This document shows, one piece after another, positions 4,475 through 13,944 of a stretch of 46,021 bases of DNA. The position numbers and the translations under genes were made by a program. Each line of letters opens with the position of its first letter. Position 1 is the stretch's first letter. The stretch is taken from positions 1 to 46,021 of the forward strand of contig JACQCA010000093.1 of the NCBI GenBank assembly GCA_016201865.1, written 5' to 3'. The notes below the pieces were generated by a model. The model ran no database searches, was not told the DNA's origin, and saw only the letters and a program-made list of their open reading frames with translations. Source of the stretch: Nitrospirota bacterium (GTDB lineage Bacteria; Nitrospirota; Nitrospiria; JACQBZ01).

Positions 4475-4804
4475 CTACCATTCTTTGAAGATGAAGAAGA
4501 CGGCGCCGATCATCATCGAAAACCCGACAAGGGTGTTCCATTTCAGGCCTTCTTTCAGATACAGCACCGAAAAGATGCAGAAGACGACCAAGGTGATGAC
4601 CTCCTGGATCGTTTTCAACTGCGCGGCCGTAAATTGGTAATGCCCGATGCGGTTGGCCGGGACCTGGAAACAGTACTCCACGAACGCAATCAGCCAACTG
4701 ATCAGGATGGCCTTCCAGAGAAGAGAGTCTTTGTACTTGAGATGCCCATACCAGGCGATCGTCATAAAGATGTTCGAGACCGTCAAGAGGAGGATCGTTG
4801 TCAT
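4475..4804 (-). CDS. DUF486 / DMT-like small membrane protein
   Basis: This 109-residue protein has four membrane helices. It begins MTTILLLTVSNIFMTIAWYG, continues with AFVEYCFQVPANRIGH and QLKTIQEVITL, and ends in FFIFKEW. These are the conserved blocks of DUF486, a single-domain relative of drug/metabolite transporters. The length matches the family. ATG 4804 is chosen because family members begin there, although a longer open frame exists upstream. No clear Shine-Dalgarno site is seen; a TATATT run lies very close to the start, so the mRNA leader may be very short. Substrate unknown. Confidence 0.78.
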   Translation of the reverse strand: MTTILLLTVSNIFMTIAWYGHLKYKDSLLWKAILISWLIAFVEYCFQVPANRIGHYQFTAAQLKTIQEVITLVVFCIFSVLYLKEGLKWNTLVGFSMMIGAVFFIFKEW

Positions 4805-4898
4805 GAAAATAAATATACCAGAAAGTCTGCGGTCAGGCAAGAAGAGCATCCGCCATGAAAACGGGATTGCAAAAGCGATCAGGGATCGGGTATTCTTT

Positions 4899-4920
4899 GG
4901 GCGACGCAAGCCCCTATGAT
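4899..4920. repeat. REP-like element, GGGCGAC...GCCCCTA type, copy A
   Basis: GGGCGACGCAAGCCCCTATG closely matches 4984-5002 and the reverse complement of 34983-35003. The inverted core is GGGC...GCCC. It lies in the 211-base gap between the DUF486 and exbB genes. Confidence 0.5.
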
Positions 4921-4955
4921 AAATTCCCGGCGAGCAAGGCGAGCGGGAGGGGGAG

Positions 4956-4982
4956 GCTCCATTCCGCCTTAGGCGGATGGAG
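4956..4982. repeat. Hairpin CTCCAT-CCGCC / GGCGG-ATGGAG
   Basis: CTCCATTCCGCC pairs with GGCGGATGGAG across a TTA loop, with one bulged T. There is no T-run, so a simple terminator is unlikely. It sits directly before the next REP-like copy and forms a composite intergenic element. Confidence 0.5.
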
Positions 4983-5002
4983 GGGGCGACACGAGCCCCT
5001 AC
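4982..5002. repeat. REP-like element, copy B, before exbB
   Basis: GGGGGCGACACGAGCCCCTA then C. It is the inverted form of the 34985 copy in the rpsA leader with one or two differences. The exbB start lies 13 bases downstream, so the element is in the exbB mRNA leader or promoter. Confidence 0.55.
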
Positions 5003-5015
5003 AATGGGAGTCGAG

Positions 5016-5678
5016 ATGAAAATCACGCAGATGTTTCTTGCCTTCAGCCTCGTCGGGGGAATCTGGATCCTCTACCTTCTGATCGGCCTGAGCGTGTTGT
5101 CGGTGGCGATTATCCTGGAGCGGCTGCTCTATTTCCGCGCGAACCGGCCCAAACCCGGCGACTTTCAGCCAAAACTTCTGTCGTATCTACAGACCGGGAA
5201 GATTGAAGACGCGATCGGCCTCGCCCAAAAAGCCGCGGGCCCCGAAGCCCGCTGCGCGCGATTGGCCCTCTATTCCCGGCATGAGGGCACGGACGTGATC
5301 CGGCAAAATCTCCTGAACGGCCTTCTGACGGAACAGCATCGGATGGAAAAGAGGCTGTTGATCTTGGGGACATTGGGAAACAACGCCCCATTCATCGGAT
5401 TGCTGGGGACGGTGCTCGGCATCATCAAGGCCTTCTATGATCTTTCCATCGCCGGCGCGGGCGGGCCCAGCGTCGTGATGCTTGGGATTGCGGAGGCGCT
5501 TGTGGCGACGGCCATGGGACTTTTTATCGCGATCCCGGCCGTGATCGCGTACAACTATTTCCAGCGCCGTACCCGTCAGACGCGCCAGCAGTTGGAACGT
5601 CTCGCCGAGACCCTTCTTCTCTATCTCAAATCGGAACCGACCTCCGGCTCATCCGGCGCCGGAGCGAAAACGCGATGA
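5016..5678 (+). CDS. exbB: MotA/TolQ/ExbB proton-channel family protein
   Basis: This 220-residue inner-membrane protein belongs to the ExbB/TolQ family. It has one N-terminal helix (about 10-32), a cytoplasmic loop, and a long C-terminal helical pair. The pair contains the family core LGTLGNNAPFIGLLGTVLGI and AEALVATAMGLFIAIPAVIAYN. With ExbD it forms the proton channel that energises TonB. ATG 5016 is preferred over ATG 5004 because GGGAG lies 5 bases before it. The stop overlaps the exbD start (ATGA, 5675-5678). The adjacent tonB and receptor genes argue for ExbB rather than TolQ. Confidence 0.88.
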   Translation: MKITQMFLAFSLVGGIWILYLLIGLSVLSVAIILERLLYFRANRPKPGDFQPKLLSYLQTGKIEDAIGLAQKAAGPEARCARLALYSRHEGTDVIRQNLLNGLLTEQHRMEKRLLILGTLGNNAPFIGLLGTVLGIIKAFYDLSIAGAGGPSVVMLGIAEALVATAMGLFIAIPAVIAYNYFQRRTRQTRQQLERLAETLLLYLKSEPTSGSSGAGAKTR

Positions 5679-6085
5679 TTTTTCGGGAAGACCATGACGG
5701 TGAAGAAGACCTGGTCACCGGGATCAATATCATCCCGCTGGTGGACATCTCGCTTGTTCTGTTGATCATCTTCATGGTCACGACAACGATTATCCTTTCT
5801 CCCTCTCTTCGAATGGATCTTCCGAAGGCCAGAACGGCCGAGCCCAGCCCGCTGACCCGACTGACGGTTTCGATGGGGAAGAACGGGGAGCTGTTTCTAA
5901 ATGATCAGGCCACGACCGAAGAAGCGCTTCGGCAACTGTTTCATCAAAAAGCCGAGGAGAGTCCCGCGCCCCAGGTCGTGATCAATGCGGATCGCGGCGT
6001 GGAGCACGGTGCGGTCATTCATCTGATCGATCTGGCCCGCGCGGCCGGTCTCACCCGGTTTGCGTTCATGGTGGAGAAAGAATGA
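5675..6085 (+). CDS. exbD: ExbD/TolR biopolymer transport protein
   Basis: This 136-residue protein has a short cytoplasmic tail and one membrane helix (about 17-38), in which VDISLVLLIIFMVT contains the conserved proton-carrying Asp. It is followed by a periplasmic domain ending in VINADRGVEHGAVIHLIDLA, the typical ExbD/TolR C-terminal motif (D-x4-Y/H-G). It overlaps exbB by four bases, and its own stop overlaps tonB by four (6082-6085), so the three are probably translationally coupled. Confidence 0.88.
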   Translation: MIFREDHDGEEDLVTGINIIPLVDISLVLLIIFMVTTTIILSPSLRMDLPKARTAEPSPLTRLTVSMGKNGELFLNDQATTEEALRQLFHQKAEESPAPQVVINADRGVEHGAVIHLIDLARAAGLTRFAFMVEKE

Positions 6086-6747
6086 CCGAACGATGGTCGG
6101 ACCCCGTTCGCGGCGGGATGGGCCTTCTGCTTTCGGCCCTTTTCCACGTCTCGCTTTTCATGACGGCCCTGCAGCTTTCCGGTCCGGCGCGTCGTGTCAG
6201 TCTCCCGGTCGAGATCGAGATCATCACCGCAACACGGCCGCCGGCCGTCGAGCGCTTACAACCGCTGCCTCCCGCGAAGGTTTTGCCGACGAGACCGGAG
6301 AGGCCGGTCACGACCGTTCTTCCGACGGCGCCGTCGCCGGAATCGGTTCCGGCCGAACCGGCCGCGCCGATGCCTGAATCGGCCGGCCTTCCGACCGAAA
6401 CGGTGCCGCCAGTGATGCCGTCCGAGCCGGCGGTGTCGGATACGAAAGCGCCGGTCTACACGCCGCTAACTCAGGTGAGCCGACTACCGACCTTCAAGAC
6501 GAAGGTCGAGCCGGTCTATCCGGAATTGGCCCGAAGGCTTGAGAAAGAGGGGACGGTGATGGTCGAGGTGACGATTTCGGAAAGCGGCGATGTCATGAAA
6601 GCCGAGGTGGTTCAGGAATTGGGCTTCGGTTTTGATGAGGCCGCGAAGGCCGCGATGGAGCGGTCCCGATTCGAGCCGGCCCGCGCGGGCGACCGGCCGG
6701 TGGCGGTCGTCGTTCGAATTCCGATCCGGTTCCGGTTCAAGGATTGA
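6082..6747 (+). CDS. tonB: TonB energy transducer
   Basis: This 221-residue protein has an N-terminal signal-anchor helix (about 12-31), a long periplasmic stretch rich in Pro, Glu and Val (about 40-140), and a C-terminal TonB fold starting VEPVYPELARRLEKEGTVMV and ending in FEPARAGDRPVAVVVRIPI. It links the ExbBD proton channel to outer-membrane receptors. The four-base overlaps on both sides (ATGA at 6082, TTGA at 6744) tie it to exbD and to the receptor gene. Confidence 0.88.
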   Translation: MTERWSDPVRGGMGLLLSALFHVSLFMTALQLSGPARRVSLPVEIEIITATRPPAVERLQPLPPAKVLPTRPERPVTTVLPTAPSPESVPAEPAAPMPESAGLPTETVPPVMPSEPAVSDTKAPVYTPLTQVSRLPTFKTKVEPVYPELARRLEKEGTVMVEVTISESGDVMKAEVVQELGFGFDEAAKAAMERSRFEPARAGDRPVAVVVRIPIRFRFKD

Positions 6748-8972
6748 CACGCTTGACAAAACGTGCACCGGTTTTGATTGTGCTTATTTTGGGTTGCTCC
6801 TGGGCATCGGCTCAAGAGATCCAGACCGGCTCGCTGTCCGGCCGCGTGATGGAGAAGGGAACGAAGCAGGTTCTGTCCGGCGCGAATCTTTTTCTGGAGC
6901 CGATCGGCGAGACCGTGCTGTCCGACGAGGCCGGGGGCTTTCGGTTTCAGAATCTCGCGCCCGGGGAGTACCGTCTCATCATCGCGGCCGTCAATTATCG
7001 GAAGCTGGAGCCGATTCCGATCCGGATTCTCGAAGGACAGGATCAGACGGTCACGCTTTATCTTGAGCGGGAGCCGATCTCGATGTTAGAGATCGTGGTC
7101 GAGAGTGAGCGCAAGCCGCCGGACCCCGGCCGACAGACGCTTCAACGGGAAGAGGTCCGAAAGATCCCCGGCGCCGGCGGGGATCTGATCATGGCGGTCC
7201 AGAGCCTGCCCGGCGTGACGGCGGCCGGCGGATTCGGGGGGGATTTCCTGTCGCGGGGATCGGGCCCGTTGGATAATTTTGTTTTGTTGGATCAGATGCC
7301 CGTCTTTCTCACCTTTCATTTCGGCGGTTTGATCAGCACGATCGGCGCCGATCTGGTCCAGTCGATGGACTTTTACGCCGGCGGATTCCCAGCGCGATAC
7401 GGAGATGCGATGGGCGCCGTACTGGATATCTCCAGCCGGGACGGCCGGAAGGATCGGATCGAAAGCCGCCTAAACGTCAGCCCGGTCCTCATCGAGGCGC
7501 GCGTCGAGGGTCCGGCCGGGAGCGACGCGAACTTTTTCCTGGCCGGCCGTCGTGGCCTGATCGAGTACCTTCCGCTTCCGACGCCGAGCGGCACGACCGT
7601 GATTCCGGCCTTCAACGATTATCAGGCCAAGGTCGGCTACGACTTATCGGCCCGCCACCGGCTGAGCCTGCTCTTCTTCGGCTCGCACGATGGATTCGTT
7701 TTCGAGACGAATGAGCCCGATCCCCGCGACCCGATTCTCAGCAGTTTTAATCTCAATATCGATTTTCACAATCAGGGCTTGAGTCTGCGTTCGTATCTCA
7801 CGCCGCAGCTTACCTCCACATTGACGCTGTTTAACAGTTACAATACTCAGCGGACCGCCATCGGCCCGGACATTTTTCTGAACTTTGTCTCGGATCAAGT
7901 GAGACTCAAGGGCCATTTCGTCTACGAACTTCCGTCGCAGACCGTGGCGACGGGCTTCGAGGTCGGCCATGTCTGGTACTCGATTGATTCGCACTTTGTC
8001 CGCTTCTGCCGAGAGGGGGAACCGGCCTGCAACCTGACGAACGCCGAACGGATCGAGACCCATTTCAGCGACACCGGCGACGGAGGCGATCTCTATCTGC
8101 AAGATACGCTGCACCTTCCGTCCCGACTCGATCTGACGCTGGGCGGGAGGGCGGACTATTTCGGGCTGACCCGCGCGCTGGACTTCAGCCCGCGGCTTTC
8201 CGCGCTGCTGCATCTGACGGAGGATCAACGGATCAAGGCGGCCTACGGCTATTATTATGAATGGCCGGATCGGAATGGCGAATTCATCAAGGGATTCGGC
8301 ACGCCGGATATCGGGTCCAGCCGGGCTATCCATTATGTGCTGGGTTACGAGCGCCGGTTTAGTCCGGCCGTGGATCTGGACCTCCAGGTCTATTATAAGG
8401 CGTTGGACCATCTGATCGTGACGTCAAATGATCCGGGGGTCGTGTACGACAACGACGGTGTGGGATACGCGACGGGAGCGGAACTTCTGCTGCGGCATCG
8501 TTTGACGGATCGTTTCTTCGGCTGGCTCTCCTACGCCTATTCCATTTCCAAGCGGCGGAATCATTCGGGAGAAGACTGGCGGCTCTCGGATTATGACCGT
8601 CCAGAGGCGATCACCCTCGTCGGCAGTTACCAGCTCACCCAACGCTGGAATCTCGGCGGCCGATGGCGGTTTACCTCCGGCGCGCCCTACACCCCCGTCA
8701 TCGGAAGCGCGTTTGATCCCGTGAATAACCGCTATGATCCGATCTATGGAGAGGTGAATTCGAGGCGACTGCCGCCGTCGCATCGCCTGGATCTGCGCGC
8801 GGAATACAAAAAAGCCTACGATACTTGGATCCTGACGACCTATCTTGAGATCTGGAATGTCTACAACCGTCGAAACCCGATCGGGATCGACTATTCGGAC
8901 GACTTTTCCGAGAAGAAGTTCACGACGGAACCCGGCCTGATTCCCTTTATCGGGATCACGGCCGAGTTTTAA
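6744..8972 (+). CDS. TonB-dependent receptor with carboxypeptidase-regulatory-like N-terminal domain
   Basis: This 742-residue outer-membrane protein has a signal peptide cleaved near residue 23 (WASA-Q). It continues with a beta-sandwich regulatory-like domain (about 28-108), a TonB-box-like EIVVE (116-120), a plug (about 125-240, with SLPGVTAAGGFGGDFLSRGS) and a beta-barrel ending in an aromatic residue (ITAEF). The terminal Phe is typical of outer-membrane barrels. The start is TTG 6744 overlapping the tonB stop; TTG 6753 is also possible. It is encoded in the same operon as its energisers, so it probably serves one dedicated substrate. The substrate is not evident, as no siderophore, cobalamin or sugar genes are adjacent. 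Confidence 0.86.
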   Translation: MTRLTKRAPVLIVLILGCSWASAQEIQTGSLSGRVMEKGTKQVLSGANLFLEPIGETVLSDEAGGFRFQNLAPGEYRLIIAAVNYRKLEPIPIRILEGQDQTVTLYLEREPISMLEIVVESERKPPDPGRQTLQREEVRKIPGAGGDLIMAVQSLPGVTAAGGFGGDFLSRGSGPLDNFVLLDQMPVFLTFHFGGLISTIGADLVQSMDFYAGGFPARYGDAMGAVLDISSRDGRKDRIESRLNVSPVLIEARVEGPAGSDANFFLAGRRGLIEYLPLPTPSGTTVIPAFNDYQAKVGYDLSARHRLSLLFFGSHDGFVFETNEPDPRDPILSSFNLNIDFHNQGLSLRSYLTPQLTSTLTLFNSYNTQRTAIGPDIFLNFVSDQVRLKGHFVYELPSQTVATGFEVGHVWYSIDSHFVRFCREGEPACNLTNAERIETHFSDTGDGGDLYLQDTLHLPSRLDLTLGGRADYFGLTRALDFSPRLSALLHLTEDQRIKAAYGYYYEWPDRNGEFIKGFGTPDIGSSRAIHYVLGYERRFSPAVDLDLQVYYKALDHLIVTSNDPGVVYDNDGVGYATGAELLLRHRLTDRFFGWLSYAYSISKRRNHSGEDWRLSDYDRPEAITLVGSYQLTQRWNLGGRWRFTSGAPYTPVIGSAFDPVNNRYDPIYGEVNSRRLPPSHRLDLRAEYKKAYDTWILTTYLEIWNVYNRRNPIGIDYSDDFSEKKFTTEPGLIPFIGITAEF

Positions 8973-9074
8973 AGCCGTTTCAAGTCATCCGGTCCTCTCT
9001 AAAGGTTCGGAAAACACAAACAAAGCCCGCCGTTTTTTGAAATTCCTGCTATACTTCAAAGGGAAGGTAATCTC

Positions 9075-9983
9075 ATGAAGCCCTGCCCGGCATGCCGGCG
9101 CGAAGTTCAAGATGCAGCAAAAGAATGCCCGCACTGCGGCGTGGTGTTTGCGAAGTGGAAAGCTTCCTCCGAACGTCCGGCCCCAAAAACTGATTTACCG
9201 CGTTCCGAATCGAACCGAAACGAAGCCTCTGAGCGAAAGATGACCCGCCGCAAGGTCACCAGTCTTAATGTGGTTGGTATCGGAATCGTTCTTGGCTTCG
9301 CGGCCATGGACGCATGGGAAGCAGGAGGGTTTGCTGTCATTTTTTCCATCCTGGGTCTTGCCTCTTATGCGGGGGCCAAGGGACGCAGTGCCGCGTGGGG
9401 TTTGCTGGGACTCCTTCCGCCCTACGGAACGCTTGTCGGATTAGGCCTGCTCCTCTGGCTCCCAGACGTGATCCGGGCGACGACGCCTCCCGCTCGGTCA
9501 AGGGCTCCCCTGTGGGTCTCCGGGCTGGTCCTCTTCATCATGTTTATGTATGTCTCGAGCGCCGTTCCCCCATACATTAAGTACAAGAAGCGTTCGCGGA
9601 CCGCCGACGCATCTACTCACGCCCAGATGATCTGTAAAACGGTCGCCTCCTGGATTTCGGCGCAGGGCAAGACCGAGGGAAGCCCTTCTTTTCCGCCGGA
9701 TCCCTATCAGGTTGGCCATGATGGAAAGCCGTTTCGGGAGCGCCATCCCTCCGAGTCGGGCTGGATGGTCGATGGGGACCGATACTACCGCTATTCGATC
9801 TTCAACGATGGGTCATTCGGCTCAGGCCCACAAAACCCGGTCGTCGTGGCCGAATCAAAAGAAGGACCGGACGACAGCCGTGTCTATGGTGCAATAGTGC
9901 AGACGGGAGGAAAAGGGCGGAAGTCCGGACAGGATCTTTCCGGCTGCAAGAGCAACGTCGAGGACGTTTCGAGTAGTTATTAA
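9075..9983 (+). CDS. Zinc-ribbon membrane protein with pilin-like C-terminal module
   Basis: This 302-residue protein begins with a zinc ribbon (C4, C7, C18, C21; ends CGVVFAKW), followed by a charged linker and three or four membrane helices (about 63-162). The last helix runs into AVPPYIKYKKRSRTADAS, which resembles the amphipathic N-terminal helix of type IV pilins. The C-terminal domain holds YYRYSIFNDG, GPQNPVVVA, YGAIVQTGG and LSGCKSNVE. C187 and C291 could form a pilin-like disulfide. The next gene repeats this C-terminal half without the ribbon. ATG 9075 follows AAGGTAATCTC; a TATACT -10-like box lies at about 9051. Function unknown. Confidence 0.62.
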   Translation: MKPCPACRREVQDAAKECPHCGVVFAKWKASSERPAPKTDLPRSESNRNEASERKMTRRKVTSLNVVGIGIVLGFAAMDAWEAGGFAVIFSILGLASYAGAKGRSAAWGLLGLLPPYGTLVGLGLLLWLPDVIRATTPPARSRAPLWVSGLVLFIMFMYVSSAVPPYIKYKKRSRTADASTHAQMICKTVASWISAQGKTEGSPSFPPDPYQVGHDGKPFRERHPSESGWMVDGDRYYRYSIFNDGSFGSGPQNPVVVAESKEGPDDSRVYGAIVQTGGKGRKSGQDLSGCKSNVEDVSSSY

Positions 9984-9996
9984 AGGACAACACCCT

Positions 9997-10707
9997 ATGC
10001 GCAAGATCATCGCCGCTACGTTGATCCTATCGGGCCTGGTCGTCTGGATCATCGCCTACCGGGTCCATCGGGCCGGAATGGAAATCGGAATTTTCTTGGG
10101 GCCATTTGCGATCGCGCTGGGTATCGGCCTGTTCGCAAGCGCCAAGCGTCGCAGCCTTTGGTGGATGACACTGTCCTTCCTCGGCCCGCCCGTCGGGATC
10201 GCGGTTCTGCTCGTCCTCATTCTGCTATCGGACAAGTCGCCGGAACGCCTGGTCGGCTCCCGGTGGTTCTGGGAACGGATTCTTCCGATGGTATTGTCCA
10301 TCCCGTTTTTCCTGATTTTCCTCGCCATCACCGTTCCGGGTTATGTAAAGTATATCAAGCCGGCGCGAACGGAGGATGCCTCAGTCCGAGCGGAACGGAT
10401 CTGCAGGGCTGCAATGGATTGGGTTGGGGGCGGTAAAGTGATTGACGAAAAGTTATTTCGCGCCCGCTTTCCGGCCGAATCCGAATGGCTGATGAAGGGC
10501 GATTCTTACTACCGATATGCCGTCTCGGTCGACGGCACGCAGGGTTCATCTCCTCAAAATCCGGTGGTGGTGGCCTCGTCCCGAAACGGCGCAGCCGACC
10601 CGGCGGTTTACGGCGCGACGGTCCAGGCCGGAGGAATCGGCATGAAGTCCGGGCTGGATCTTTCCGGTTGCAAGAGCAACGTCGAATACGTTTCAGACGG
10701 CTATTAG
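9997..10707 (+). CDS. Membrane protein with pilin-like C-terminal module (paralogue of the preceding gene)
   Basis: This 236-residue protein has no zinc ribbon. It starts directly with three membrane helices (about 4-22, 30-48, 57-78) and a fourth (about 96-114). The fourth leads into TVPGYVKYIKPARTEDASVR, the same pilin-like helix as in the upstream gene. The C-terminal domain shares SYYRYAVSVDG, SPQNPVVVASS, VYGATVQAGG and LSGCKSNVEYVS. C136 and C225 match the conserved Cys pair. It lies 13 bases after the upstream gene, with AAAGGA before ATG 9997, and 10 bases before the next. Tandem duplication is the simplest origin. Confidence 0.62.
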   Translation: MRKIIAATLILSGLVVWIIAYRVHRAGMEIGIFLGPFAIALGIGLFASAKRRSLWWMTLSFLGPPVGIAVLLVLILLSDKSPERLVGSRWFWERILPMVLSIPFFLIFLAITVPGYVKYIKPARTEDASVRAERICRAAMDWVGGGKVIDEKLFRARFPAESEWLMKGDSYYRYAVSVDGTQGSSPQNPVVVASSRNGAADPAVYGATVQAGGIGMKSGLDLSGCKSNVEYVSDGY

Positions 10708-10717
10708 AAGGATTATG

Positions 10718-11728
10718 ATGAAGCCCTGCCCCGCCTGCCAGCGTGAGGTTCAAGACGAAGCGAGCGAATGCCCCTTCTGCGGAGTGGTGTTTGCGAAGTG
10801 GAAAGGGAATGCTTCGGTGAAGGCAGTTAACCCGCTTGCTCAAGGCCCTGTTGCGGATAAATCAACAACCGCCTCGCAGAAACAGAGAGGTTTCTTCTCC
10901 ACTTGCATTTTAGTTCTTTCTGATCCCGCAAGATTCTTTAAAGACGTTAAGGAGTCCGGAAACATAAAACAGGCACGGTGGTTTACCCTCAAAGTTTTAA
11001 GCCTGGGTTATGCCGTGGTGATGATCGAATTGTGGAAAAACGGACATCCACCGCTAATAGAGATTTTCACTCCAGTGTTTCTCATGATGTTTGTGTCATT
11101 TGGAAGTCTATTGCTCCTTGTATTTATCCTTACTTTTATGCTCGCAGGTTTTTATCATATGTGTGTCAAATTTTTGAGGGGGAAGGGCTCCTATGCCGAT
11201 TCATATCACATCCTCCCCTATGGAGCGATACTACCAGGAACTCTCGGATTTCTTGCTTCAGGAGTACTCAACTCATTTATCAGATTGCTGTTTGATTCTC
11301 GTGGGAGTTCCTTCTTGATCCTGATTCCGATCGCCGGTCTGGTCTGGGGTTTATATAATATGAGCATTGGAGGCTCTATTCTCCACAGGATAAGTATGAA
11401 AGCTGCAGCCTTTGCTGCTGTGTTCTATTTATTAATGCCGGTGTCCTTAATCAGCTACCCATCACTCAAGATCCAGTGGGCAAAACATCAGGCGGAATCC
11501 CTTTGCGCCGAAGCCGTCATCGGCGGGCCGGTCGAAGGGCTTGAGGCCAAGGCCAGAGATCTGGGATTGAGAGTTATCTCGCAGCCTGCCGGGTGGTATA
11601 CAGACCCGAAAAATCCGCCCCCTGCGCGAATTAGTGCGTGGGAGGGATGGATATTCGCGCGCTGGTTCTGTGACATCGAACATGCGGATGGCAAGGTCAT
11701 TCAGAAGCACACGTTTTATCTTGATTGA
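10718..11728 (+). CDS. Zinc-ribbon polytopic membrane protein (Yip1-like)
   Basis: This 336-residue protein opens with the same zinc ribbon as 9075 (C4, C7, C18, C21, ending CGVVFAKWK). A linker then leads to LVLSDPARFFKDVKESG, which resembles the entry of Yip1-type domains, and about five membrane helices (about 85-245). The tail is soluble, with QPAGWYTDPKNPPPARISAW. ATG 10718 aligns with the other ribbon starts; the tandem ATG at 10715 is an alternative. AAGGA lies just upstream. It has no pilin-like module. The Yip1 call rests on topology and one motif, so it is tentative. Confidence 0.55.
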   Translation: MKPCPACQREVQDEASECPFCGVVFAKWKGNASVKAVNPLAQGPVADKSTTASQKQRGFFSTCILVLSDPARFFKDVKESGNIKQARWFTLKVLSLGYAVVMIELWKNGHPPLIEIFTPVFLMMFVSFGSLLLLVFILTFMLAGFYHMCVKFLRGKGSYADSYHILPYGAILPGTLGFLASGVLNSFIRLLFDSRGSSFLILIPIAGLVWGLYNMSIGGSILHRISMKAAAFAAVFYLLMPVSLISYPSLKIQWAKHQAESLCAEAVIGGPVEGLEAKARDLGLRVISQPAGWYTDPKNPPPARISAWEGWIFARWFCDIEHADGKVIQKHTFYLD

Positions 11729-11815
11729 ATAGGGATGAGAGTTTGATGGGAGCGGTTCAATCATTTTTTTACATCACCTTGTGGGCCACGGCTTAGTCTT
11801 GAAAGGTTGCTAAGA

Positions 11816-12355
11816 ATGAAATCCTGCCCCGCCTGTCAGCGTGAGGTTCAGAGCGAAGCGAGCGAATGCCCGCACTGCGGCGTGGTGTTTGCGAAGTGGT
11901 CGGGGCGTTCCCCGAAGTCCTCCTCAGTGCCTACCCCTAAAAATACAATCCCTACAAAAACAGAATCCAGAGGGCTATCAGTGGTGCTGGTTCTTTTGAT
12001 GCTGATCTTTACTGGGCTCGGGTTCAAAGGTGTTATAACCACTTTTATGGATGCCGCCTCCATTGGTCCCGCTCTGTTTATCTTTAGGATCTTGTTCAAT
12101 GGGTCATTGATTTTTACCGCTATCGGCCTATGGCACTATAAAAAATGGGCCTACGTGGCAGCAATCATCTATGGAATGATTATGATATTATTGCCGCTTG
12201 TTATTTTCAGTCCGTTTGCAGCAAGCGATTTGGGAACCCACCATCCGGCCGTCGATCTCCCGTTTGGAGCAGTCTATGCCATCACCATACTATGGATCGG
12301 ACTGTGGTTGGTGATTCTGTATGTACTCAGACGGCACGAAAGTAGATTCCGTTAG
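11816..12355 (+). CDS. Zinc-ribbon membrane protein, third paralogue
   Basis: This 179-residue protein begins with the ribbon MKSCPACQREVQSEASECPH (C4, C7, C18, C21) and FAKW. A Ser/Pro/Thr linker follows, then four membrane helices (about 57-170) and a basic tail. The first 80 bases are nearly identical in DNA to those of the 10718 gene, yet the rest is unrelated. ATG 11816 is chosen over an upstream TTG at 11807. An 87-base gap separates it from the previous gene, with no clear terminator. Function unknown; the cytoplasmic zinc ribbon is presumably a protein- or nucleic-acid-binding adaptor. Confidence 0.6.
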   Translation: MKSCPACQREVQSEASECPHCGVVFAKWSGRSPKSSSVPTPKNTIPTKTESRGLSVVLVLLMLIFTGLGFKGVITTFMDAASIGPALFIFRILFNGSLIFTAIGLWHYKKWAYVAAIIYGMIMILLPLVIFSPFAASDLGTHHPAVDLPFGAVYAITILWIGLWLVILYVLRRHESRFR

Positions 12356-12425
12356 CGACGGTTTTCTGAAGGTCTTGGTCGATCACCAATAAAAAAACCG
12401 CAGATAACATGTGGGGGGAAATTAA

Positions 12426-12893
12426 ATGAAGATAAAAACATGGCTTATCGGTACGCTATTGACCGTCACCATAGCATCGGTGATCGGATTCATGTACTGG
12501 AATTCCCCGGAGCGCCGGATTCGTGCGGTGCTGTCGGACGGCAAGGCGGCGATTGAGGCGAAAGAGATGGACCGTGCAATGTCTCACGTCTCGCTGCAAT
12601 ACCGGGACGAGAACGGGCTTGCCTATATGACCGTCAAAAAGCTTTTGAAGATGGCCTTCGACCAATTTGAAGGTTTTGAGCTTCGGCTTACGAACGTCGC
12701 GTTGGAAATCGAAAAGGACCACGCCGTCGTCCGCGCGGACCTCGATGTAATCGGCATCCACCAGAAAGAGAAATCCTACCTGATCGGGAGTCAGCAGGAA
12801 CCCGTCCCGATTCGAATCACACTGGTCAAAGAGACGATGAAATGGCAAGTCGTGAGCGTGGATGGAATCAAGATGCCGTTTGCTGATTTCTGA
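12426..12893 (+). CDS. Membrane-anchored or exported protein, NTF2/SnoaL-like
   Basis: This 155-residue protein has an N-terminal hydrophobic segment (about 5-24), either a signal anchor or signal peptide. The globular part starts SPERRIRAVLSDGKAAIEAK, has the alternating pattern of a cone-shaped alpha+beta NTF2-like fold, and ends in ITLVKETMKWQVVSVDGIKM, a typical last strand of that fold. A run of six Gs about 7 bases before ATG 12426 is the likely ribosome site. It may be transcribed with the upstream membrane-protein cluster or alone. Fold assignment is by pattern only; no ligand can be named. Confidence 0.5.
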   Translation: MKIKTWLIGTLLTVTIASVIGFMYWNSPERRIRAVLSDGKAAIEAKEMDRAMSHVSLQYRDENGLAYMTVKKLLKMAFDQFEGFELRLTNVALEIEKDHAVVRADLDVIGIHQKEKSYLIGSQQEPVPIRITLVKETMKWQVVSVDGIKMPFADF

Positions 12894-12915
12894 ATATTGC
12901 CTCCTTTCCCATCAT

Positions 12916-12944
12916 TGCAATTGTTCCGCAATCCGAATACAATG
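12916..12944 (+). promoter_or_regulatory. Predicted promoter of the beta-CASP nuclease gene
   Basis: TTGCAA (12916-12921) and TACAAT (12939-12944) with a 17-base spacer. The start codon at 12985 lies about 34 bases after the predicted transcription start. Confidence 0.55.
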
Positions 12945-12984
12945 AGGCCCGTAATTCACTAACGGAGCGTTGCGCGGGTCTTCA

Positions 12985-13944
12985 ATGATTGAACTCAATA
13001 AAGGAATCCGGATCGTCGGCACGGAGCTGTGGCTGGATTCGACAAAGGCCCGGCCGCTCGGTTTCATCTCCCATGCCCACGGCGATCATACCGGAAAACA
13101 TCAGCAGGTGATCGCGACCCCGGCCACCTGGTCGCTCTGCCGCCATCGGCTTGGGACCAAACCTCAAATCACTCCGCTTGAGTTTCGTGTACCTTATTCA
13201 GTGGACGGCCTTACGATTGAACTTTTGCCGTCGGGCCACATCCTCGGCGCGGCCCAGATTTTAATTCAGAACGGACAACGCATCGTCTACACCGGAGATT
13301 TCAAGCTCAAGCAGAACCGGACGGCCGATTTGGCCGAGGTCCCGAACTGCGACACATTGATCATGGAATGCACCTTCGGAAAGCCGCAGTATGTTTTTCC
13401 ATCTACGGACGAGGTCGAGCGGCGGCTGATTGAATTCATTGAATCGGCGTTTGAGGACCAAATGGTCCCGATACTGCTCGCCTATGCGATGGGAAAAAGC
13501 CAGGAGGTTTTGAAATTCCTCGGCGACCGGGGCTACACCGTCTGTCTTTCGAAGCAGACGATGGATGTCGTCAAGCTGTACGAGTCCTGCGGCGTGACCT
13601 TCAAAAATTACGAACGCTTCGAGAACGGCAACCTGCAGGGGAAGGTGGTCTTAATGCCTCCTTACCTGGCCCGGACGCGGATGGTCGAGAAGATTTCGAA
13701 CCGCCGCACGGCCGCACTGACCGGCTGGGCGATGGATGAGGAGGCCAAAAACCGTTTCGGTGCGGACGAAGCGATCCCGATGTCGGACCATGCCGATTTC
13801 GAGGAGTTGAACGAATACGTCGACCGGGCGCGGCCGTCGAAGATATACACCGTCCACGGCGGTCCGGAATTCGCCCGGCATCTTCGCGCGCGCGGCTTCC
13901 GGGCCGAGCACCTCGCCCCCGGCACCCAGCTCGCGTTTTGGTAG
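12985..13944 (+). CDS. MBL-fold beta-CASP exonuclease-like protein
   Basis: This 319-residue protein has the metallo-beta-lactamase motif HAHGDHTG (H30, H32, D34, H35), SGHILGAAQ (H85), YTGDFK (D105) and an ECTFG segment. It ends with MSDHADFEEL and VHGG, the order seen in beta-CASP nucleases that act on RNA or DNA. Its short length and SDHADF motif are like the ligase-associated/Ysh1-type single-domain exonucleases, but no DNA ligase is adjacent. ATG 12985 is chosen over an upstream TTG because the protein then begins MIELNKGIRI. It has its own promoter and a following leader with an inverted repeat before comF. Substrate uncertain. Confidence 0.75.
   Translation: MIELNKGIRIVGTELWLDSTKARPLGFISHAHGDHTGKHQQVIATPATWSLCRHRLGTKPQITPLEFRVPYSVDGLTIELLPSGHILGAAQILIQNGQRIVYTGDFKLKQNRTADLAEVPNCDTLIMECTFGKPQYVFPSTDEVERRLIEFIESAFEDQMVPILLAYAMGKSQEVLKFLGDRGYTVCLSKQTMDVVKLYESCGVTFKNYERFENGNLQGKVVLMPPYLARTRMVEKISNRRTAALTGWAMDEEAKNRFGADEAIPMSDHADFEELNEYVDRARPSKIYTVHGGPEFARHLRARGFRAEHLAPGTQLAFW

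Follow-up and report, generated by a model that had tools for sequence, protein, structure and literature searches.

Three neighbouring membrane-protein genes of a Nitrospirota bacterium open with a zinc-ribbon-like module that was probably copied at the DNA level

INTRODUCTION

To our knowledge, bacteria have no introns of the exon-shuffling kind, and therefore one seldom gets to see how a short N-terminal domain spreads onto numerous proteins that are not related to each other. Among membrane proteins with an N-terminal zinc ribbon, a CxxC-x10-CxxC start is followed by a linker and membrane helices, and the bodies are unrelated in several phyla. YdjG, encoded in the pspA-ydjGHI operon of Bacillus subtilis, is a membrane protein that carries ribbons (PMC11237479, PMC9239133), and the protein, as distinct from its ribbons, is described as needed for the membrane placement of PspA and YdjI (PMC8581546). 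Movement of domain sequence has been described as DOMO (domain movement) in the specificity subunits of H. pylori, where it occurs within one gene and where the authors link it to flanking repeats (PMC3077401).

Here, we describe a locus within a 46,021-nucleotide stretch of DNA from a Nitrospirota bacterium (contig JACQCA010000093.1; the whole stretch is hereafter called the window), whose junctions, composition, and codons still carry marks of a copying event, making it a small bacterial example of cut-and-paste protein building. The locus has the start, linker, and helices in common with the ribbon-bearing membrane proteins described above, and it differs from them in that its Pfam matches lie below cut-off and in that three near-identical copies stand side by side. 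By description (i.e., ribbons on a membrane protein), it can be likened to YdjG. As in DOMO and in short-tract gene conversion, domain sequence would have moved between gene contexts via recombination; unlike in DOMO, the 5' module here is common to neighbouring genes, and the repeat finder returned no flanking repeat around the modules that would mark a mechanism. A search of titles and abstracts, with most subscription journals outside its reach, returned none describing this cluster or a ribbon-pilin protein.

RESULTS AND DISCUSSION

Three adjacent genes share a 28-codon 5' module

A 28-codon module with the pattern CPxC-x10-CPxCGVVFAKW opens genes A (9075), B (10718), and C (11816), all of which lie on the forward (+) strand, as do all features given below. 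It spans positions 9075..9158 in A (MKPCPACRREVQDAAKECPHCGVVFAKW), 10718..10801 in B, and 11816..11899 in C; the first ATG of B is at 10715, in frame with 10718, and the start of C is either ATG 11816 or TTG 11807. Per 84 coding bases, 70 are identical between A and B, 68 between A and C, and 74 between B and C, and pairwise 21 to 23 of 25 amino acids are the same. The repeat finder returned a single family with three 88-base copies, those at 10718 and 11816 being 84% and 78% identical, respectively, to that at 9075. The similarity stops at codon 28-29 on the 3' side (identity of 0.20-0.35 in the 20-base window beginning six bases past codon 28) and near the ATG on the 5' side (0.10-0.30 in windows beginning 20 to 40 bases 5' of the ATG). 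Both the near identity of these gene starts and its sharp end had been pointed out in a first-pass annotation of this DNA, and both hold.

The cysteine spacing is alike in all three proteins (C4, C7, x10, C18, C21, then GVVFAKW), and this zinc-ribbon pattern of four cysteines in two knuckles predicts zinc binding. Matches to the Pfam zinc-ribbon families PF10571, PF13240, and PF13248 all fall under the curated cut-off (best, 25.3 vs 29 bits), and an NCBIfam TcaA match covers the start only, at 21.6 bits vs a cut-off of 550. The ribbon would fold around zinc on the cytoplasmic side and form a small cap, or a knob for docking, ahead of a flexible linker, with the helices and any outer domain varying from gene to gene behind it. 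Knowing the function of this cap would shed light on a broad and poorly characterised class of ribbon-capped proteins.

Codon agreement, composition, and a mosaic pattern point to copying

Codon agreement was compared with the expectation at saturation, calculated from the codon usage of the 37 window ORFs taken as genes. B and C use the same codon at 18 of their 23 same-amino-acid positions, with 11.0 expected (P = 0.0021; P = 0.0011 when usage was taken from 13 rather than 37 genes). Over the whole module, agreement is within saturation for A and B (14/22; P = 0.10) as well as for A and C (13/21; P = 0.14). Conserved amino acids together with codon bias are thus a sufficient account of the A-B agreement, and the same combination of constraint on the protein and codon bias may explain A along the full length of its module.

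The ribbons of B and C each have a GC3 of 21/28, and their bodies have 98/216 (B without its C-terminal domain; 155/308 for the whole body) and 78/151, i.e., GC3 falls at the junctions from 0.75 to 0.45 in B and from 0.75 to 0.52 in C (pooled Fisher test of ribbon vs body, P = 1.6e-4). In A, the ribbon (18/28) is like the body (173/274). In both B and C, body GC3 is lower than the GC3 of any of the other 37 window ORFs (mean 0.738, sd 0.046, minimum 0.644). These ORFs mostly begin lower in GC3 than they continue (mean -0.087, largest excess +0.101), and none of the 37 matches the start-versus-rest excess of B (+0.296) or C (+0.233). The low GC3 of the two bodies could also have another cause. 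The first-pass annotation proposed to compare synonymous divergence in the module with that in the remainder of the genes, which presupposes a homology that A, B, and C do not detectably show outside the module. The nearest stand-in is A against its paralogue at 9997; their dS is 1.89 and that of the ribbon module is 0.40-0.94, a contrast that favours copying and is drawn from 16-17 synonymous sites in a module of 84 bases.

A 36-base tract of A, codons 17-28 (9123..9158), is identical to positions 11864..11899 of C, and this exact run ends at codon 28. The odd-one-out sites along the A/B/C alignment read CCAACAAACCCAAAAA, then BBBB, and a breakpoint permutation yielded P = 0.0011 by base and 0.0097 by codon. 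In the 5' half, A and C agree at 2 of 10 codons, and in the 3' half they agree at all 11, a split at codon 16/17 that was picked post hoc; the breakpoint test, which allows for this choice, is weaker by codon (0.01). The longest-run test gave P = 0.025 for A-C before correction for three pairs (0.61 for A-B and 0.77 for B-C). An exact 3' run next to seemingly saturated 5' halves suggests a conversion tract.

DNA-level copying is the better reading of these data, most strongly for B and C, and on balance we think it probable that a 28-codon zinc-ribbon module was copied between neighbouring membrane-protein genes and now caps unrelated bodies. That a 5' module was copied or recombined, one of two explanations offered in the first-pass annotation, is supported in part, chiefly for B and C (codon agreement above saturation, a GC3 step at both junctions, and the mosaic), the codons of A staying within saturation against either of them over the whole module. 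The composition of the module fits this genome, and a copy of it would have been joined to two membrane genes of low GC, B (Yip1) and C, or would have taken the place of a ribbon that they had before, a direction of copying that we infer. The B and C copies are the closest pair overall, and the 3' half of C matches A exactly, as after a short A-C conversion tract. It seems improbable that the genome keeps the ribbon as a resident cassette for gene starts, fitted repeatedly onto incoming membrane-protein genes by short-tract recombination at their 5' end; if so, foreign proteins would gain a home-made cytoplasmic handle by which the cell could place or control them.

The bodies behind the module are unrelated

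Downstream of the module, the genes differ, in line with what had been noticed from the sequence at first. BLASTP of the bodies found no match between A and B, nothing better than E = 1.8 between B and C, and 26% over 97 aa (E = 0.017) between A and C, which is too weak to call homology. A has a pilin-like domain at its end, B combines Yip1 with a C-terminal domain, and C has four hydrophobic helices.

In A, the module is followed by a linker with three stretches predicted to be hydrophobic (9159..9509; weak DUF6249 match, 20.7 bits vs a cut-off of 33) and then by a last hydrophobic helix and the pilin-like domain (9510..9980), which is homologous to pilins of its own genome and to a pilin of genome G003. 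With the A body as the query, the G003 pilin was matched at E = 5.8e-27 and the own-genome pilins on contig C58 at E = 1.7e-16 and 6.2e-9. Gene 2 (9997..10707) is, by sequence comparison, a paralogue of the A body (40% aa) that has no ribbon, and thus the body can occur apart from the ribbon and the two are not passed on as a single unit. Both proteins have the helix end P-x-Y-x-K-Y, two cysteines, and the C-terminal tyrosine in common with type IV major pilins (own contig C58 and G003 contig C7), and they differ from these in the three hydrophobic stretches ahead and in lacking the N_methyl motif: PF07963 (prepilin motif, GFTLIE) gave no match at E<=1 for A or gene 2 and is present in the three pilins. 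As judged from sequence, A and gene 2 are multi-helix type IV pilin relatives without the prepilin motif. Structure prediction for A from a two-sequence input yielded helices and then strands (mean pLDDT 45.4, pTM 0.24), with residues 1-20 modelled best (pLDDT 73-74) and the rest poorly. No solved structure matched the pilin-like part at E<=1; a profile built from alignment A2 finds pilins among solved structures, and since this alignment includes true pilins, these matches are no independent proof.

The linker and Yip1 domain of B (10802..11449) match Pfam PF04893 at 55.7 bits, above the cut-off of 28.6, which places B in the Yip1 family. The C-terminal domain follows (11450..11725), with GC back to 0.57 from 11486 and GC3 above that of the Yip1 part (P = 0.023). 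Among 245 genomes of the phylum, the B body was matched in one other (G071), by the C-terminal domain alone, in a relative that has neither a Pfam Yip1 match nor a ribbon; no solved structure matched B at E<=1. The C body, a linker and about four hydrophobic helices (11900..12352), had two weak matches in the same genomes (E about 0.003). Plasmids searched by tblastn gave no match to either body, and PHROGs searched with the bodies only gave none at E<=1. Full-length C matches phrog_22898 at 1.7e-6, a match that rests at least partly on the ribbon, since the body alone finds nothing there.

The GC3 difference within B and the Yip1-less relative of its C-terminal domain indicate that body parts do get exchanged. 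Both fit an account in which one ribbon gene was duplicated in tandem to give B and C and foreign bodies subsequently replaced those of the two duplicates, as does the fact that their ribbons are the closest pair and neighbours. Such a history requires more events than copying, from which the present data do not separate it, and we regard it as credible but unlikely.

Neighbouring genes and a common partner

The other explanation put forward at first was a selected zinc adaptor, with one cytoplasmic partner binding all three ribbons and keeping them alike. Residues are conserved beyond the cysteines, as it would predict, and the need for ribbon-bearing YdjG in PspA and YdjI placement offers a parallel, although the two-hybrid partner of PspA and YdjI given in that report is YdjH (PMC8581546). 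Protein-level selection explains neither the codon agreement nor the GC3 step. A conserved partner nearby had been suggested as a check, and when 17 ORFs from 4-18 kb of the window were compared with the ORFs next to ribbon genes in 16 stretches, none of those lacking a ribbon had a match at E<=1e-4; each stretch covers at most 8 kb, two represent the same place, and the gene for a partner could lie elsewhere. An adaptor with a single partner is neither supported nor refuted by this comparison, and we regard the idea as credible but unlikely. Away from the window cluster, two ribbon genes (L032 and L035) both follow a cNMP-binding-domain gene, which is a lead, not a finding.

Ribbons elsewhere in this and other genomes

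The ribbon type is in itself nothing special, since related ribbons sit on unrelated proteins in other phyla and on viral contigs, and same-kind ribbons cap M50-like, thioredoxin, and secretion-type F proteins. In its own genome, a DNA search with a query mixed by hand from the three copies returned these three at E<=1.3e-24 (next, E = 0.18), and a nine-row ribbon profile returned them at E<=2.7e-18 (next, E = 0.07). Searching the genome for ORFs with this ribbon, as the first-pass annotation had advised, yielded no close copy beyond these three. Their pairs are the three most similar among the 41 same-genome ribbon pairs compared; the other 38, from four of 11 genomes and 17 of 21 listed ribbon matches, reach at most 17/25 identical amino acids (mean 0.40).

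A further account would see ribbons of old and separate origin whose likeness is maintained by codon bias and by constraint on the protein. The motif CGxxFAK[WYF] recurs in conserved form in different phyla, and high DNA identity can thus arise without recent copying; ribbons ending in CGV[VI]FAKW on unrelated proteins of other phyla and the whole-module codon agreement of A with B and C fit this account. We consider it doubtful, given the B-C agreement above saturation (P = 0.002), the matching of B and C at variable positions (among them codon 16, where both use AGC for serine, an amino acid with six codons), the lower ceiling in the four other genomes, and the GC3 step in B and C.

Ribbon queries against other genomes turned up no second case of three near-identical side-by-side copies, and these genomes included no second one of the genus for dating the events. 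Six other genomes of the family were searched; three had no match, and three had one weak match each (E 0.005-0.008) in a different protein. Insertion of the cluster as one island is not claimed, because a plain short gap was seen in just one family genome. One close ribbon pair was found in G273, where the two lie 527 bases apart, the ribbons are less similar, and the bodies look alike.

A shared ribbon module on three unrelated bodies

Three forward-strand genes, A (9075-9983), B (10718-11728, with a first ATG at 10715), and C (11816-12355), start with the same 28-codon zinc-ribbon module (CPxC-x10-CPxCGVVFAKW), which is identical at 70 (A-B), 68 (A-C), and 74 (B-C) of its 84 bases. The identity stops around the ATG and, within one or two codons, at the last residue of the module, W28. 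The downstream bodies differ; BLASTP among them yielded no match better than A-C (26% over 97 aa, E = 0.017). On all three points, the first-pass annotation held. No further close copy of the module was found when the genome itself was searched.

The 302-aa product of A has hydrophobic stretches at ~61-79, 83-101, 109-129, and 146-164, followed by a domain matching type IV pilins. Its body was matched in 3 of 245 genomes of the phylum (its own included), and it resembles pilins on contig C7 of genome G003 (E = 5.8e-27) and on contig C58 of its own genome (E = 1.7e-16 and 6.2e-9). Gene 2 (9997-10707) is a paralogue of the A body (40% identical) that lacks the ribbon. When aligned with the pilins, both A and gene 2 share their P-x-Y-x-K-Y, two cysteines, and final tyrosine; the prepilin cleavage motif, present in the G003 and C58 pilins, was found in neither. 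Judged from sequence, A and gene 2 are apparently uncleavable multi-helix pilin relatives. Their pilin-like ends span 9510-9980 and 10291-10704, respectively, each with three extra hydrophobic stretches N-terminal to it. By search score, A is nearer to the G003 pilin than to those of its own genome, and in a multiple alignment it is 36% identical to the former versus 38% and 28% to the latter.

B comprises a Yip1 domain (55.7 bits, cut-off 28.6) and a C-terminal domain (11450-11725). It was matched in 2 of the 245 genomes, its own included; in the other, G071 (L017), the match covers the C-terminal domain only, in a protein without ribbon, Yip1, or any Pfam match. This domain represents a second movable part within B. 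The body of C, with about four hydrophobic helices, matched no PHROG or Pfam family.

Copying versus constraint

The first-pass annotation had proposed that the 5' module was copied or recombined, or that a zinc adaptor recruiting one partner is under strong constraint. We scored the share of same-amino-acid positions that also have the same codon against the expectation at saturation, with codon usage taken from 37 window ORFs regarded as genes (12,247 codons). B and C agree at 18 of 23 positions (11.0 expected if saturated; P = 0.0021), and therefore these two have kinship at the DNA level. Agreement was 14 of 22 for A-B (P = 0.10) and 13 of 21 for A-C (P = 0.14); usage from 13 ORFs gave P = 0.0011 (B-C), 0.07 (A-B), and 0.11 (A-C). 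Nei-Gojobori dS of the module, calculated over only 16-17 synonymous sites, was 0.40 (B-C), 0.75 (A-B), and 0.94 (A-C), as against 1.89 for A versus gene 2.

Third-position GC content (GC3) also changes at the junctions. It is 21/28 in the ribbons of both B and C, compared with 98/216 in the B body up to the Yip1 end (P = 0.004) and 78/151 in the C body (P = 0.024; pooled P = 1.6e-4). With its C-terminal domain included, the B body stands at 155/308, and both bodies are lower than all 37 other ORFs (minimum 0.644). In those ORFs, the first 28 codons are on average poorer in GC3 than the remainder (mean -0.087), and the largest initial excess among the 37 is 0.101, smaller than that of either B or C. 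Joining would be expected to leave such a trace, ribbons that have the home composition attached to bodies that do not. Since GC3 rises again from 0.46 in Yip1 to 0.61 in the C-terminal domain (P = 0.023), B looks like three pieces. No such step occurs in A (ribbon 18/28, body 173/274).

Recombination of the 5' module is thus supported for B and C; for A, over the whole module, constraint together with codon bias is compatible with the codon test. Within the module, B and C agree over codons 1-16, where A mostly differs, and A and C are identical over the 36 bases of codons 17-28, where B differs; A-C codon agreement is 2/10 in the first part and 11/11 in the second. This split was picked on sight, and a permutation test over all breakpoints gave P = 0.0011 by base and 0.0097 by codon. 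A longest-run test was weaker (A-C, P = 0.025 uncorrected; A-B, 0.61; B-C, 0.77). Based on this mosaic and both tests, gene conversion between A and C over a short tract is likely, not proven.

Ribbons in other genomes

The pattern CG-[VIM]-x-[FY]-AKW was absent from the DNA of all 244 further genomes drawn from the phylum; a Nitrospirales genome outside that draw (L034) does have such an end. Across the genome collection, CGV[VIM]FAKW was matched by 16 stretches, and an ORF scan placed it within an ORF of at least 60 aa in 11 of them (L021, L022, L026, L027, and L029-L035), with the L027 ribbon one cysteine short. The scan recovered no such ORF for L023, L024, L025, L028, and L036, whose matches may be due to chance. 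The ribbon is carried by an M50-like protein in L022 (PF02163, below cut-off) and by a thioredoxin body in L031. In six relatives (L003-L008), it ends in FAKY, always on one HEAGH-bearing protein, and FAKF ribbons occur on three viral contigs.

We also observed a CGVVFAKW ribbon fused to a T2SSF (GspF/PilC-type) protein (L068:1501-2715, the L035/L068 gene; PF00482, 4e-37). The viral ribbons (L084, L085, and L086) read MNECPKC...FAKFE; L084 and L085 encode proteins that match each other along 181 aa, and L086 has a second ribbon.

All 11 genomes searched further, corresponding to 11 of the 16 loci, contained ribbon matches, with up to eight per genome (G269, on eight contigs). Several of these eight (L091-L098), reached via Elusimicrobia record L026, have a proline/alanine-rich linker. 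From 17 of 21 matches in four of the 11 genomes plus the A, B, and C ribbons, 41 same-genome pairs were obtained; the A/B/C pairs were the top three, and the other 38 shared at most 17 of 25 residues. An additional G274 pair shared 11 of 25. Therefore, the cap is common, and near-identity as in A, B, and C is unusual. Neighboring ribbons are not strictly unique to these genes, because G273 has two, less alike, 527 bases apart on bodies that resemble each other. By eye, those bodies resemble cNMP-binding domains.

Neighborhood and possible function

The region is flanked by a DMT-type gene (4475-5026) and an MBL-type gene (12970), which in G003 are separated by 117 bases (L090, 4756 and 4874). 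The 8-kb block between them (4800-12985), comprising ExbB, ExbD, TonB, a receptor, A, gene 2, B, C, and the gene at 12426, is missing there; 15 kb of G003 gave no match to any of these at E ≤ 1e-3. The MBL protein was present in 5 of 7 family genomes (own included); in the stretches retrieved from the other four, A, gene 2, and B were unmatched, and C had a single ribbon-like match, of 17 residues, in L087. The difference may reflect either gain in the window genome or loss in the relatives.

A conserved partner near the ribbon genes did not emerge: comparing 17 ORFs around the cluster with those of 16 ribbon-bearing stretches (up to 8 kb; two from the same place) gave no match for any non-ribbon window ORF at E ≤ 1e-4. 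In two unrelated genomes, a cNMP-binding-domain gene (PF00027) directly precedes the ribbon gene (L032:1846-2373 and L035:7334-7780).

Free cysteines and positively charged loops suggest that the ribbon would face the cytoplasm. As a guess, the pilin-like domain of A would lie outside only if the proline-bearing third stretch were re-entrant. Excerpts of the literature describe Bacillus subtilis YdjG as a membrane protein with ribbons (PMC11237479, PMC9239133), needed to place PspA and YdjI at the membrane (PMC8581546), and it may offer a studied parallel for the role of A, B, and C. YdjG is also described as having an NTF2-like domain (PMC11237479), and the gene following C (12426-12893) shows a weak SnoaL-like, NTF2-type match (PF13474, 18.4 bits, below the cut-off of 22).
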